Assembly: GCF_018141525.1 (NCBI RefSeq)
Contig: NZ_CP064655.1
Coordinates: forward strand, 2,946,501-3,010,500
DNA length: 64,000 nucleotides
From: Miltoncostaea marina
GTDB lineage: Bacteria > Actinomycetota > Thermoleophilia > Miltoncostaeales > Miltoncostaeaceae
Direction of reading: 5' to 3'
Notes under the pieces: model-generated
Told to the model about the DNA's origin: nothing
Seen by the model: the letters and a program-made list of their open reading frames with translations, nothing else
Database searches by the model: none
Translations under genes and position numbers: made by a program
Shown: one piece after another, positions 44,993 through 50,221 of the stretch
Position numbering within the stretch: position 1 is the stretch's first letter
Layout of the letters: each line of letters starts with the position of its first letter

Positions 44993-45771
44993 CCCACGTC
45001 GTCCACGCGCAGCTCGTGCGCCTGGCGCGCCCGCGCGCGCTGCTCGCCGCCCTCGCGGCGGCGCTGCTGTTCGCCGTCGTCGTGCCGGCGGCCGTCATCC
45101 TGTCCGCCGGCGCCGGCCCCGCCGGGGGGCGCGCGCCGACCCTCACCTCGCTCGCCGGGCCCGGCGGCGGCGCCGAGGCGTTCGCCCTCGGCGTCTCGTT
45201 CACCGGGCTGCTCGTGCTGGTGCTGGTCACCGCGGTGTTCACCGGCGAGTTCTCGCGCGGCACGATGCGCGTGATGGTGATGCGCGAGCCGCGGCGCCTG
45301 CGGCTGCTGGGCGGCACGATGGCCGCGATGCTCGGCGTCGCGGCCGCGTTGCTGGCCGTGACGGCCGCCCTGGCCTGGGCCGGGTCGGCGGCGATCGCGC
45401 CGGGCCGGGGTGTGCCGATCGGCGACTGGCTGACCGCCGAGGCGCTCGGCGAGGACCTCGCGGCGTACGGGCGGGCCCTCGCGGTGGTCTGCTGCTGGGC
45501 CCTGATCGGGATGGCGCTCGGCGTGTCCCTGCGCGTCACGCCGCTCGCCCTGGCGGCGGGCGTGGCCTGGTTCGGGCCGTTCGAGCACATCGTGGCCGAC
45601 TCCTGGGGCGGCGGCGAGCGCTGGTTCCCCGGGCTGCTGCTCGAGGCGGCCGCGGCGGGCGGCACCGACGCCGTGCCGCTCGCGCGCGCCCTGCCGCTCG
45701 GCGCCGCCTACGCGCTGGCGGCGGCGACCGTGGCGGCCGCGCTGCTGCGGCGGCGCGACGTCACCGCGTGA
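44989..45771 (+). CDS. ABC transporter permease
   Basis: 260 aa. Six hydrophobic segments: ALLAALAAALLFAVVVPAAVILSAG, GVSFTGLLVLVLVTAVFTGEF, TMAAMLGVAAALLAVTAALAWAG, LAVVCCWALIGMALGVSL and a final LPLGAAYALAAATVAAALL. The EFSRGTMRVM after span 2 is typical of ABC-2 permeases of this class. With the ATPase upstream it makes a half-transporter pair. The last 11 bases overlap the GH65 gene end. Confidence 0.93.
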   Translation: MTHVVHAQLVRLARPRALLAALAAALLFAVVVPAAVILSAGAGPAGGRAPTLTSLAGPGGGAEAFALGVSFTGLLVLVLVTAVFTGEFSRGTMRVMVMREPRRLRLLGGTMAAMLGVAAALLAVTAALAWAGSAAIAPGRGVPIGDWLTAEALGEDLAAYGRALAVVCCWALIGMALGVSLRVTPLALAAGVAWFGPFEHIVADSWGGGERWFPGLLLEAAAAGGTDAVPLARALPLGAAYALAAATVAAALLRRRDVTA

Positions 45772-48136
45772 CGCCGCCGCCGGTGCGGCGGCGGGGCTCC
45801 CGCCCGGCCGGCTGCCGCGGGCGCGGCAGGTCCGGCAGGGGCGGGAGCGGCCGCGTGACGGCCTCCGTCCCCGTCAGGGTGAGCCGCTCGCCCCAGTGCA
45901 GGATCGGCAGCGGGTCGTCGCCGGGGTCCAGCCGGTAGGTGGCCCGGTCGCGCACGATCTCCACGTAGAGCCGCCGGTCGCGCACCAGCAGCGGGAAGGC
46001 CAGCCGCTCCACCTGACGCGGCAGCCGCGGGCTGAACGCCAAGCCGTGGCGGCTGCGGCGCAGGCCGCCGAAGCCGGCGACGACGGCCAGCAGCGCGCCC
46101 GCGAGCGAGGCCATGTGCAGGCCCTCGCGGATGTTGCCCTTGAGGTCGTGGAGGTCCGTGAGCGCGGCCTCCGCCAGGTAGTCGTAGGCGAGGTCGACGT
46201 GCCCGACCTCGGCGGCCACGATCGCCTGGATGCACGCCGACAGCGACGAGTCGCGCACCGTCAGCGCCTCGTAGTACTCGAAGTTGCGCCGCTTCTGCTC
46301 GGGCGTGAAGGCGTCGCCGCAGGTGAACATCGCCATCACCAGGTCGGCCTGCTTCACCACCTGCTTGCGGTAGAGGTCGAGGTAGTGGTGGTGCAGCAGC
46401 AGCGGGTAGCGCTCGGGGGCGGTGGCCTCGAAGTCCCACACCTCGTGGTCGGTGAAGCCCTCGCTCTGGGGGTGGACGCCCAGCCGCTCGTCGTACGGGA
46501 TCGCCATCGTGTCGGCCGCACGGCGCCAGGCGGCGACCTCGTCGGGGCTCACGCCGAGGGCGTCGGCGCGCTCGGGGCGGCGCTCCACCGCCGCGGCCGC
46601 CGCGCGGAAGTTGTCCCGCGCCATGAGGTTCGTGTAGACGTTGTTGTCCGCGATCGCCGAGTACTCGTCGGGGCCGGTGACGCCGTCGATGCGGAACGCG
46701 CCGCCGGCGACCTGGTAGCCGAGGCTCGCCCAGAGCCGCGCCGTCTCGACCAGCAGCTCCAGGCCCACGTCGCGCATGAAGTCCTCGTCGCCGGTCACGT
46801 CGTCGTAGAGCTGCACGGCCCGGGCGATGCCCGCGTTGACGTGGAAGGCCGCCGTGCCCGCCGGCCAGTAGCCCGAGCACTCCTCGCCGCCGATCGTGCG
46901 CCAGGGGAACGCCGCCCCGTCGAGGTCGAGCTGGCGGGCGCGCTCGCGCGCCAGGTCGAGCATCCCGTGGCGCCAGACGAGCGCGTCGCGGGCCAGCCGC
47001 GGTTGCGAGAACACGTAGACCGGGAGCACGTAGGCCTCCATGTCCCAGAAGGCGTGCCCGTCGTAGCCCGGGCCGGTGAGGCCCTTCGCCGGCACCCCCC
47101 GGCCGTCGGCGCGGGTGCCCGCCTGCACGAGCTGGAACTGGGCGAAGCGCAGCGCCTGCTGCAGCTCGTCGTCGCCGTCGACCTCGATCTTCGTGCTGCG
47201 CCAGTAGGCGTCGAGCGCCTCGCGCTGCATGGCCGCCAGGCCGTCGAAGCCCTCCGCGAGCGCGTTCTGCAGGCTGGCGTCGACCTGGTCGCGCAGCCAC
47301 TCCACGGACTGATGCGACGACCAGTGATAGGCGATGAGCTTCGTCATCCGCAGCGGCCGTCCGGGGTGCAGCTGCGCCGACACCGTCACGCGGCCCAGGT
47401 CGGGCTCGCTCTCGGTGCGGGTGAGCGGCGGGTTGTCGGTCTCGAGGGCGTGCTCCATGCCGGCCGCCAGCGACAGCCCCGTGCGCGAGGTGGTGTGCGC
47501 GAGCACGACGCGCAGCCCGTCGTGGACCGACAGCCGCGGCACGAGCACGGCGCCGATCGCCGCCGCCTCGCGGGGGTCGGTGCCCGAGCCCACGTCGACC
47601 CGGTTGGCGAGCAGGCTCGACTGCAGGGCGATGCGCACCGGGCGGTCGATCGCCTCCACCTCGAAGCTCACCGCGGCCACGCTGCGCATGCGCAGCGACA
47701 CCAGGCGCCGGCTGGTGACCCGCACGGTGCGGCCCGCGCGGGTACTCCACACCAGCACTCGCTCGAGGATCCCGGTGCGCAGGTCGAGCCAGCGCTCGTG
47801 CGACTGCAGGTCGCCGCGGTGCACGTCCAGCGGCTCGTCCTCGACCAGCAGCCGGATGAGCTTGCCGTCGGTGACGTTGACGACGGTCTGGCCGTCCTCC
47901 GGGTTGCCGTAGGCGCGCTCGCCGTACCCCAGCGTGTGGGTCTCGTAGAAGCCGTTGAGGTACGTCCCGGCGATGGCGCGCGGCTCGCCCTCGTCGAGGT
48001 TGCCGCGCAGGCCGAGGTGCCCGTTGGACAGCGCGAAGACGGACTCGGTGAACGCGAGCCGATCCAGGTCCAGCGCGGGCTCGCGGATGACCCACGGGTC
48101 CAGCGGAACCCCCTCGGTCTCCAGTGTCGCGGGCAC
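45761..48136 (-). CDS. Glycoside hydrolase family 65 phosphorylase
   Basis: 791 aa from the GTG at 48136. N-terminal beta-sandwich (ALSNGHLGLRGNLDEGEPRAIAGTYLNGFYE), then the catalytic helical barrel with FRIDGVTGPDEYSAIADNNVYTNLMARDNF (catalytic Glu near residue 490), VVKQADLVMAMF and DLKGNIREGLHMASLAG. These enzymes cleave maltose, trehalose, kojibiose or nigerose with phosphate to give beta-glucose 1-phosphate; the substrate is not determined by sequence alone. A beta-phosphoglucomutase partner is not adjacent. The secreted repeat protein lies upstream by 21 bases. Confidence 0.93.
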   Translation of the reverse strand: MPATLETEGVPLDPWVIREPALDLDRLAFTESVFALSNGHLGLRGNLDEGEPRAIAGTYLNGFYETHTLGYGERAYGNPEDGQTVVNVTDGKLIRLLVEDEPLDVHRGDLQSHERWLDLRTGILERVLVWSTRAGRTVRVTSRRLVSLRMRSVAAVSFEVEAIDRPVRIALQSSLLANRVDVGSGTDPREAAAIGAVLVPRLSVHDGLRVVLAHTTSRTGLSLAAGMEHALETDNPPLTRTESEPDLGRVTVSAQLHPGRPLRMTKLIAYHWSSHQSVEWLRDQVDASLQNALAEGFDGLAAMQREALDAYWRSTKIEVDGDDELQQALRFAQFQLVQAGTRADGRGVPAKGLTGPGYDGHAFWDMEAYVLPVYVFSQPRLARDALVWRHGMLDLARERARQLDLDGAAFPWRTIGGEECSGYWPAGTAAFHVNAGIARAVQLYDDVTGDEDFMRDVGLELLVETARLWASLGYQVAGGAFRIDGVTGPDEYSAIADNNVYTNLMARDNFRAAAAAVERRPERADALGVSPDEVAAWRRAADTMAIPYDERLGVHPQSEGFTDHEVWDFEATAPERYPLLLHHHYLDLYRKQVVKQADLVMAMFTCGDAFTPEQKRRNFEYYEALTVRDSSLSACIQAIVAAEVGHVDLAYDYLAEAALTDLHDLKGNIREGLHMASLAGALLAVVAGFGGLRRSRHGLAFSPRLPRQVERLAFPLLVRDRRLYVEIVRDRATYRLDPGDDPLPILHWGERLTLTGTEAVTRPLPPLPDLPRPRQPAGREPRRRTGGGVTR

Positions 48137-48157: not shown

Positions 48158-50221
48158 TCAGCCCCCCGGCGCCGCGGGCTCGAGGTCCTCGGCGCGCAGG
48201 CCGCCCGCGCGGAAGTCCTCGCCGCGCAGCCCGCCCTCCAGCCGCTCCACGAGCCAGTTGGCGCGCAGCACCGCCGCCTGCGAGATGCGCTGGTTGATGC
48301 GCAGCTGCTCCGCCGTGAGCTGCACCCGCGCCGCGCGGCGGACCGGCCGGCGGAGGACCGGCGACTCGGGCAGGGGCGTCGCGACCGGGACGGCCGCGGC
48401 GATGCGCAGGCCGGGCAGCAGGTGCCGCCGGCCGATGGCGCCGTCGGCCACGTTCGCGCCGGTCAGCCCGAGCTCGACGAGCTGCCGGCCGAAGGCCGCG
48501 CGGGCCACGGCCGCCTGCGAGACGCGCTGGTTGATGCGCAGCTGCGAGGCCGACCACCGCACGCCGCCGGGCGCGCGTGCCCCCGGGCGGGCCACGGCGA
48601 GCGGCTCGATGGCGAGCGCGGGCGCCGGCTCCCCGGTCGGCGCGCCCTCCACGCGGACGCCGTCGCCGAAGGCCGCCGCCGGCAGCGTCCCCCCGCGGAT
48701 GTGGGCGGGCCCCACCCGGCCGTCCAGCCGCTCGAGCGCCGCGTTGACCCGGCGCACGGCCGCCTGCGAGATGCGCTGGTTGACCACGAGCTGCGCCCGC
48801 GTCGCGGTGAACCGCGGCGGCCGCGGGAAGCCCGCGGCCAGCATGCGGATGTTGGGGCCGCCGACGGCCTCGGCCCCGGGCGTGGCCAGCACACCGCCGC
48901 CCCGGGCGCTCACCGCCATCGCGGGCTCGTTGAGGTCCTCCATCACCGACACCCGCGCGGCGCTGCGCCAGCCCGCCAGGCCGCCGCTCGCCGCGTGGAC
49001 CGTCGCCGAGCCGGGGCCCTCGGGGTCGAGCCAGGCGAGGTGGCCGACGCGCTGCTCGTCGATCGCCGCCTCGAGCGTGGCCAGGTCGAGCACCGAGAAG
49101 AACGCGAACCCGTCGTAGACCACCCGCTCCCGGTCCCACAGGCCGCTCGCCCCCGACCGCACGCGGGCCCGGACCGACAGCCCGCCCGGCCCGTCGGCGC
49201 CCGAGGCCCACGCCACCAGCGCGTACCCCTCGTCGTTGACCGCCACCTGCGGCAGCGAGGGCGCGGGGGCGCCGGCCTCCGGGCCGGCGAGGGCCTCCGG
49301 CGCGGGCCAGCCGTCGGCAGCGGCCCCGCGCACGGCGGCCTGCAGGGCGTTGCCGTCCTGCACCCAGACGACGGCGACCTCGCCGCGCCCGCTGACGGCG
49401 AGGTCGGCCTGCCCGCCGGTCGCCGACAGCTCCGCGGCCGGCTCCCAGCCCGCCGCGCCGCGGTGCACGGTCGCGGCCACCCGTCCGGGCGGCGCCAGCA
49501 CGGCGGGCCCGCCGGGGCCGACCTCGCCGCCCCGCCCCGGGACCGGCGTGCGCGCGGGCCACACGACCGCCACCCGGCCGCGCCCGCTCGCGCCGATCGC
49601 CGGCGGCAGCGCCGCCCCGGCGGGCGCGACGCCGGCGGCCACGAGGTCGAGGGGCGGGTCGGCGGCCCAGGGTGCGCCCCGCGCGGGGCGCACCGCGCGG
49701 TGCACCCGCCAGCGGCCGTCGAGCCGGTCCGCCCACGCGGCGGTCGCCCCGCCGGACCCGATGGCGACGGTCGCCGCGGCGAAGCCCTCGCCCGGGCCGG
49801 ACGCCACCGGCGCGGCGGCCCAGCCCCGCCGGGCCGTCGCGCCGAGCGACGCCGAGCGGACGGCCCCGCCCGGCGCCCGCCAGACGGCCACGGCCCGGCC
49901 GTCGTCCGCCATGGCCACGACGGGCCCCAGCGGGCGCGTCGCCGTCACGCCGGAGACCCGGTCCGCGGGTGCCCAGCCGGCCGCCCGGCCCGTGCGCACG
50001 CGGGCGACCACCGCGAAGCCGTCGCCGCTGCGCTGCGTCCAGGCGGCGACCGCCCGCCCGGACGGGGCCACGGCGACGTCCGGCCCGCGCGGCTCGGCCG
50101 AGCGGGCGGCCAGGACGACCGCGTCCGTCGCGTCCGCGGCGGCGGCCCGCCCGGCCAGGGCGGCGGCGGCGAGCGCAAGCACGGCGGCGGTGGCGACGCG
50201 ACGGGCGCGCGAGGGGCGCAT
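48158..50221 (-). CDS. Secreted beta-propeller-like protein with NQRISQAAV repeats
   Basis: 687 aa from the ATG at 50221. Signal peptide VATAAVLALAAAALAGRAAA. About residues 30-410 form repeats of the type VAVAPSGRAVAAWTQR, VVAMADDGRAVAVWRAP, VAIGSGGATAAWADR and LAVSGRGEVAVVWVQD, suggesting a multi-bladed propeller. The C-terminal 240 residues hold three copies of Q-L-x-[VI]-N-Q-R-[IV]-S-Q-A-A-V-x-R at about residues 475, 560 and 640, each followed by a helical segment. I do not recognise this motif family. No sortase or lipid anchor is seen. Confidence 0.8.
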   Translation of the reverse strand: MRPSRARRVATAAVLALAAAALAGRAAAADATDAVVLAARSAEPRGPDVAVAPSGRAVAAWTQRSGDGFAVVARVRTGRAAGWAPADRVSGVTATRPLGPVVAMADDGRAVAVWRAPGGAVRSASLGATARRGWAAAPVASGPGEGFAAATVAIGSGGATAAWADRLDGRWRVHRAVRPARGAPWAADPPLDLVAAGVAPAGAALPPAIGASGRGRVAVVWPARTPVPGRGGEVGPGGPAVLAPPGRVAATVHRGAAGWEPAAELSATGGQADLAVSGRGEVAVVWVQDGNALQAAVRGAAADGWPAPEALAGPEAGAPAPSLPQVAVNDEGYALVAWASGADGPGGLSVRARVRSGASGLWDRERVVYDGFAFFSVLDLATLEAAIDEQRVGHLAWLDPEGPGSATVHAASGGLAGWRSAARVSVMEDLNEPAMAVSARGGGVLATPGAEAVGGPNIRMLAAGFPRPPRFTATRAQLVVNQRISQAAVRRVNAALERLDGRVGPAHIRGGTLPAAAFGDGVRVEGAPTGEPAPALAIEPLAVARPGARAPGGVRWSASQLRINQRVSQAAVARAAFGRQLVELGLTGANVADGAIGRRHLLPGLRIAAAVPVATPLPESPVLRRPVRRAARVQLTAEQLRINQRISQAAVLRANWLVERLEGGLRGEDFRAGGLRAEDLEPAAPGG

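Follow-up and report, generated by a model that had tools for sequence, protein, structure and literature searches.

What is the role of three nearly identical motifs at the C-terminus of a secreted protein from Miltoncostaea marina? The gene in question lies in a 64,000-nucleotide stretch of the genome (hereafter the window), where an ORF on the minus strand at positions 48158-50221, running from an ATG start to a TGA stop, encodes 687 amino acids. The first-pass annotation had called this protein secreted and propeller-like, and the description stands. A crude test identifies a signal-peptide-like N-terminus (residues 1-29, MRPSRARRVATAAVLALAAAALAGRAAAA, positions 50135-50221, minus strand), which is followed by a cargo domain (residues 30-465, positions 48827-50134, minus strand) with no Pfam match. 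Seven or eight blade-like stretches of the type DVAVxxxGxAVAxW lie N-terminal to the repeats, so the propeller-like label is fair. A few Thermoleophilia genomes encode weak relatives of the cargo. Pfam models give no match anywhere in the protein; NCBIfam gives one, far under its cut-off. A glycoside hydrolase family 65 gene is found on the same strand (45761-48136, minus; Pfam E 3e-123), and because it starts 21 bases past the stop codon of the repeat gene, the two may be co-transcribed.

The three motifs conform to the consensus Q-L-x-[IV]-N-Q-R-[IV]-S-Q-A-A-V, with the asparagines of QLVVNQRISQAAVRR, QLRINQRVSQAAVAR and QLRINQRISQAAVLR at residues 481, 564 and 643. The spacing is thus 83 and then 79 residues, the first interval falling within the 80-90 residues originally given and the second just below it. 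All cores are on the minus strand. Repeat 1 spans residues 471-504 (positions 48710-48811) with a predicted helix at 475-500; repeat 2 spans residues 554-587 (48461-48562) with a helix at 558-584, followed by the cap motif LTGANVADGAIGRRHLLPGL; and repeat 3 spans residues 633-666 (48224-48325) with a helix at 637-662, followed by the terminal cap LRGEDFRAGGLRAEDLEP. The repeat unit exceeds the 15-residue core first noticed: its helix has about 26 residues, and the cap adds about 20 more.

A 34-column profile of the repeat scores the window copies at 64, 57 and 54 bits (E 5e-17 to 9e-14), values that lean upward since the profile was built from the repeat copies themselves. The whole 3.37 Mb genome yields 33 matches of at least 50 bits, and the next best, at 11.9 bits, is at chance level; the window copies are well beyond chance. 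A single-sequence search with the C-terminal 130 residues as query recovered the same genes, with 28 matches. The 33 copies are distributed over 13 genes, two of which encode small one-copy proteins. The possibility that the repeat is peculiar to the window protein is ruled out by these matches. Ten other secreted proteins of this genome carry the module behind unrelated N-terminal parts, which include a GH39-like domain, a proprotein-convertase P-domain, two lysyl-oxidase-like domains, a glucose/sorbosone dehydrogenase (GSDH), a weak glycosidase match, SpoIID, and three regions with no Pfam match. Across unrelated proteins and at all three repeat positions, the helix retains near-invariant polar residues (Q7, N11, Q12, R13, Q16 and R21). 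Residues 7-21 are conserved on nearly all faces, which is more than the core of a coiled coil needs and points to a second interface.

No known family accounts for this sequence in the collections that were searched. Pfam, NCBIfam and PHROG gave no credible match among 36 modules, and the PDB offered no sequence relative beyond a weak match to a ribosome-biogenesis protein (E 0.04). Foldseek searches of the PDB and BFVD, which as single-chain searches are blind to trimers made of several chains, returned no match with E <0.001, and a structural second look at 22 chains found none with Z >=2. On these negatives a known domain under a different name was rejected, whereas a fold shared with trimers of several chains may have escaped the structural searches. 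Likewise, our literature search found no paper with the motif and none on surface anchors in Thermoleophilia. An AlphaFold2 model of the 223-residue window module (residues 465-687, positions 48161-48829, minus strand), made with 36 sequences, reached a mean pLDDT of 86.6 and a pTM of 0.81. The latter value is high enough for confidence in how the three units are predicted to be arranged. Helices occupy model residues 11-36, 94-120 and 173-198, and behind each comes the same short strand-turn-strand cap. Taken together, the secondary structure and the pTM suggest a three-fold pseudo-trimer. We name this unit the NQR3 module; its sequence represents a new domain family whose function would be of a known, anchor-like kind.

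The three repeats within a module are not interchangeable. Specifically, R1 carries the pattern WLDaG....DlCGG, R2 GLTGGD..DG, and R3 f..GSITaxDLaP. With close homologues set aside, the nearest relative of 137 of the 150 repeats compared is the repeat of matching position in a different protein, which indicates that the triplet has spread as one block. Recent duplication within each gene is ruled out, as the repeats group by position. The cysteine in R1 is accompanied by exactly one cysteine within 60 residues upstream in 36 proteins, and both are absent from 18; the sole exception is a protein cut by a contig end. This co-occurrence suggests a disulfide that closes R1 in the cysteine-bearing class. 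The window protein falls in the group with neither cysteine.

Among 97 non-redundant repeat-bearing frames collected from relatives, 55 carry three copies, 34 carry one, and eight carry two, the last mostly explained by decay of the third copy, by a frameshift or by the end of a contig. With few exceptions, the 55 triples form the very C-terminal end of secreted proteins that are otherwise unrelated, and 43 of the 45 that could be tested have signal-peptide-like N-termini by the crude test. In the long type (50 triples), the units are about 80 residues apart and 15-24 residues remain to the C-terminus in nearly all cases. In the short type (five triples), the units are about 45 residues apart and only 0-2 residues follow. 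The existence of this variant without caps implies that the caps are dispensable. Cargos encoded at the loci of relatives include trypsin, OmpA, PD40, TIG, PKD, FG-GAP, NHL and GH43 domains. The first-pass annotation had proposed a new repeat that might bind a ligand or partner. Its novelty holds with respect to the libraries searched, but a ligand-binding repeat special to the propeller does not fit a module that many unrelated secreted proteins share. Rather, the copies together make up a single composite module, C-terminal, nearly always threefold, common to unrelated proteins and limited to one bacterial family. Such a pattern suggests that the module serves targeting or anchoring in all of these proteins.

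Single copies occur mostly in proteins of 190-280 residues, where the repeat directly follows the signal peptide, although a few of the frames with one copy are triples that have been truncated or frameshifted. In two genes with lysyl-oxidase or GH39-type modules, a frameshift inside the repeat region places the later repeats in another frame (L028 6169-7716, G000:C1:1137329-1137638; L108 4055-6189). These frameshifts may reflect either decay or sequencing error in GC-rich DNA. A model of a one-repeat protein has a pLDDT of 62.8, with the helix at low confidence as a monomer and a C-terminal beta domain near 83. This beta domain is of the trimeric tailspike type. It superposes on the C-terminal trimer domains of phage tailspikes and of the fibres of R-pyocins with Z values up to 9.2, which is only modestly above background for that structural search, the phiAB6 tailspike giving Z 9.2 at 2.4-2.5 Å over 90-91 residues. 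The top 17 structural matches are mostly tailspikes and R-pyocin fibres, and the rest are H-type lectins. Stalk-like DGAITxxKL motifs likewise occur, as in those phage and pyocin proteins.

Tailspikes and pyocin fibres are homotrimers. Given the resemblance of the beta domain, the simplest reading is that the one-repeat proteins are probably homotrimeric as well, with three single helices. We infer that the tandem module is the single-chain equivalent of this assembly. Unlike phage tailspikes, the NQR repeat proteins are cellular and secreted. A phage origin of the repeat was rejected, as no relative was found among viral contigs or phage genomes. Tailspike-like beta domains also occur in tandem without the NQR helix, three times in one locus (L135, G037:C70:3000-5075) and twice in each of two others (L136 and L137). 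In addition, a secreted protein (L140, G015:C6:91300-93000) has a related beta domain and, in the position of the repeat, a divergent helix, IIQRQNIRAIKQVN; it is possibly a remote member of the one-repeat group. In three genomes of the same genus (L031, L113 and L121), two tandem one-repeat genes lie beside a gene for ketopantoate reductase. The neighbourhood of this gene pair also contains aminotransferase and GtrA genes and is uninformative.

The repeat is present in 28 of the 42 genomes examined from the order Miltoncostaeales, all of them in one family. It is found in none of the 357 other Thermoleophilia genomes sampled, and the rest of a 396-genome sample of the phylum gave one weak match (22.5 bits) in a broken frame. 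These results rule out a widespread actinobacterial motif. Records labelled as Bifidobacterium and Acidobacteria (L065 and L070) contain the same frames as two loci of the window's family (L090 and L102), and are therefore probably mislabelled assemblies. One further match lies in a record labelled as Gemmatimonadota (L055). Within the family, many small genomes of the genus g12 have one match in a short frame, which corresponds to the one-repeat form. The larger genomes carry triples, with 70 copies in one case, and singles and triples coexist in Miltoncostaea-type genomes.

A folded triplet that is inherited as a block, ends unrelated cargos, and occurs in a genome where searches with positive controls revealed no SLH, CWB2 or sortase makes non-covalent retention at the cell surface the most likely function by analogy. 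We lean, with modest confidence, towards a module that is a pseudo-trimer derived from a homotrimeric ancestor and that serves as a non-covalent surface anchor akin to SLH and CWB2 triplets. Three tandem, non-identical units, each with a long conserved helix and a short beta-rich cap, would fold together as a single-chain pseudo-trimer. This tandem form would have arisen from the simpler one-repeat form, itself probably a homotrimer, and many secreted enzymes and propellers, unrelated to one another, would then have acquired the R1-R2-R3 block at their C-terminus. The module would keep its cargo on the cell surface by binding non-covalently to one common envelope component. Candidate receptors are a wall glycopolymer or the one-repeat proteins. 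Both the anchoring role and the receptor are proposed here from the likeness to known anchors. No sortase was found in genome G019. Sortase is present in 122 of 199 Thermoleophilia genomes sampled, including at least ten members of the module's own family, so some relatives possess another possible route to surface display.

The conserved helix could instead serve self-association. In such a scheme, the helices would mainly bind other NQR modules or one-repeat proteins to build a surface lattice or a multi-enzyme complex, with a logic like that of cohesin and dockerin. The core sequence shared by triples and singles, the conservation on nearly all helix faces, and the presence of both forms in Miltoncostaea-type genomes would all accord with this. 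However, most g12 genomes have the one-repeat form only, and others fit a single triple with no single copy detected, which indicates that each form can do without the other. The triple is also predicted to fold alone. We consider this scheme unlikely, though it is the most credible of the alternatives to surface anchoring.

The C-terminal position raises the question of whether the module is a device for export. As proposed for NQR3, an LPXTG/sortase anchor is a C-terminal surface-targeting device on unrelated cargos. The module C-termini lack an LPXTG motif, a hydrophobic segment and a basic tail, and end in the repeat cap. A sorting signal for some other translocation or processing machine, perhaps cleaved, could be modelled on the C-terminal domains of type IX secretion or on PEP-CTERM, and would suit the strict placement on unrelated cargos behind signal-peptide-like N-termini. 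Such a signal is quite improbable, given that the listed sequences have no C-terminal transmembrane segment or basic tail, that the module is a predicted folded body of about 220 residues in three units, and that the repeat is N-terminal in the one-repeat proteins. An outer membrane is also not known from these actinobacteria. Equally improbable is a purely structural role, as a stable cap or spacer with no specific partner that keeps secreted proteins protected or soluble, for although the high predicted stability and the disulfide-like cysteine pairing would suit it, the near-invariant polar residues exceed what folding needs and a spacer would need no limit of three copies.

The surface-anchor reading is best judged against the two triplets it resembles. 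Like the SLH triplet (PF00395), the NQR3 module sits at one end of diverse secreted proteins and has three non-identical repeats in tandem, conserved arginines, and a putative helix-based pseudo-trimer; both occur in Gram-positive bacteria. SLH domains form a parallel three-helix bundle pseudo-trimer, and their ligand is a pyruvylated secondary wall polymer. The NQR3 model gathers its three helices into one confident globule. Unlike SLH, NQR3 has no TRAE or GIIxG motif and no sequence similarity: the SLH profile matches none of 36 modules at E values up to 10 and nothing in the genome, and SLH entries are absent from the Foldseek matches to the triple-module model. Like the CWB2 triplet of clostridial cell-wall proteins (PF04122), NQR3 joins unrelated partner domains to three tandem, position-specific repeats whose order is fixed, as the same-position relationships above indicate. 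Unlike that triplet, it has no sequence similarity to CWB2, and the CW_binding_2 profile finds no match among 36 modules or in the genome. Both known systems have a three-helix core made by three repeats in tandem, with conserved arginines that recognise anionic wall polymers (PMC6081394), although the wall-polymer binding site of CWB2 is presented there as a hypothesis. Each CWB2 unit is larger than its NQR3 counterpart and has side sheets flanking the helix core (PMC6081394), and the order of their repeats matters (PMC4973711). A bolder and more tentative proposal, in which we place less than even confidence, is that NQR3 is a third, independently evolved triplet anchor of one bacterial family, in which the homotrimeric ancestor, a one-repeat protein bearing a tailspike-like trimer domain, and the single-chain form still coexist and the one-repeat protein is possibly a docking partner.

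If this route from homotrimer to single chain is true, the family would show, in organisms alive today, how three-repeat anchors such as SLH and CWB2 can come about. More generally, a previously undescribed domain gains a name and a testable function, and marks a class of surface proteins in a little-studied order, including in a genome without the known wall anchors that were searched for. The module would be an immediate predictor of the surface proteome in these organisms and a candidate display tag. In one genome (the Ww508 assembly, L047 and L048), there are runs of three to four consecutive genes that each end in a triple module, which suggests local expansion of a surface-protein cluster.
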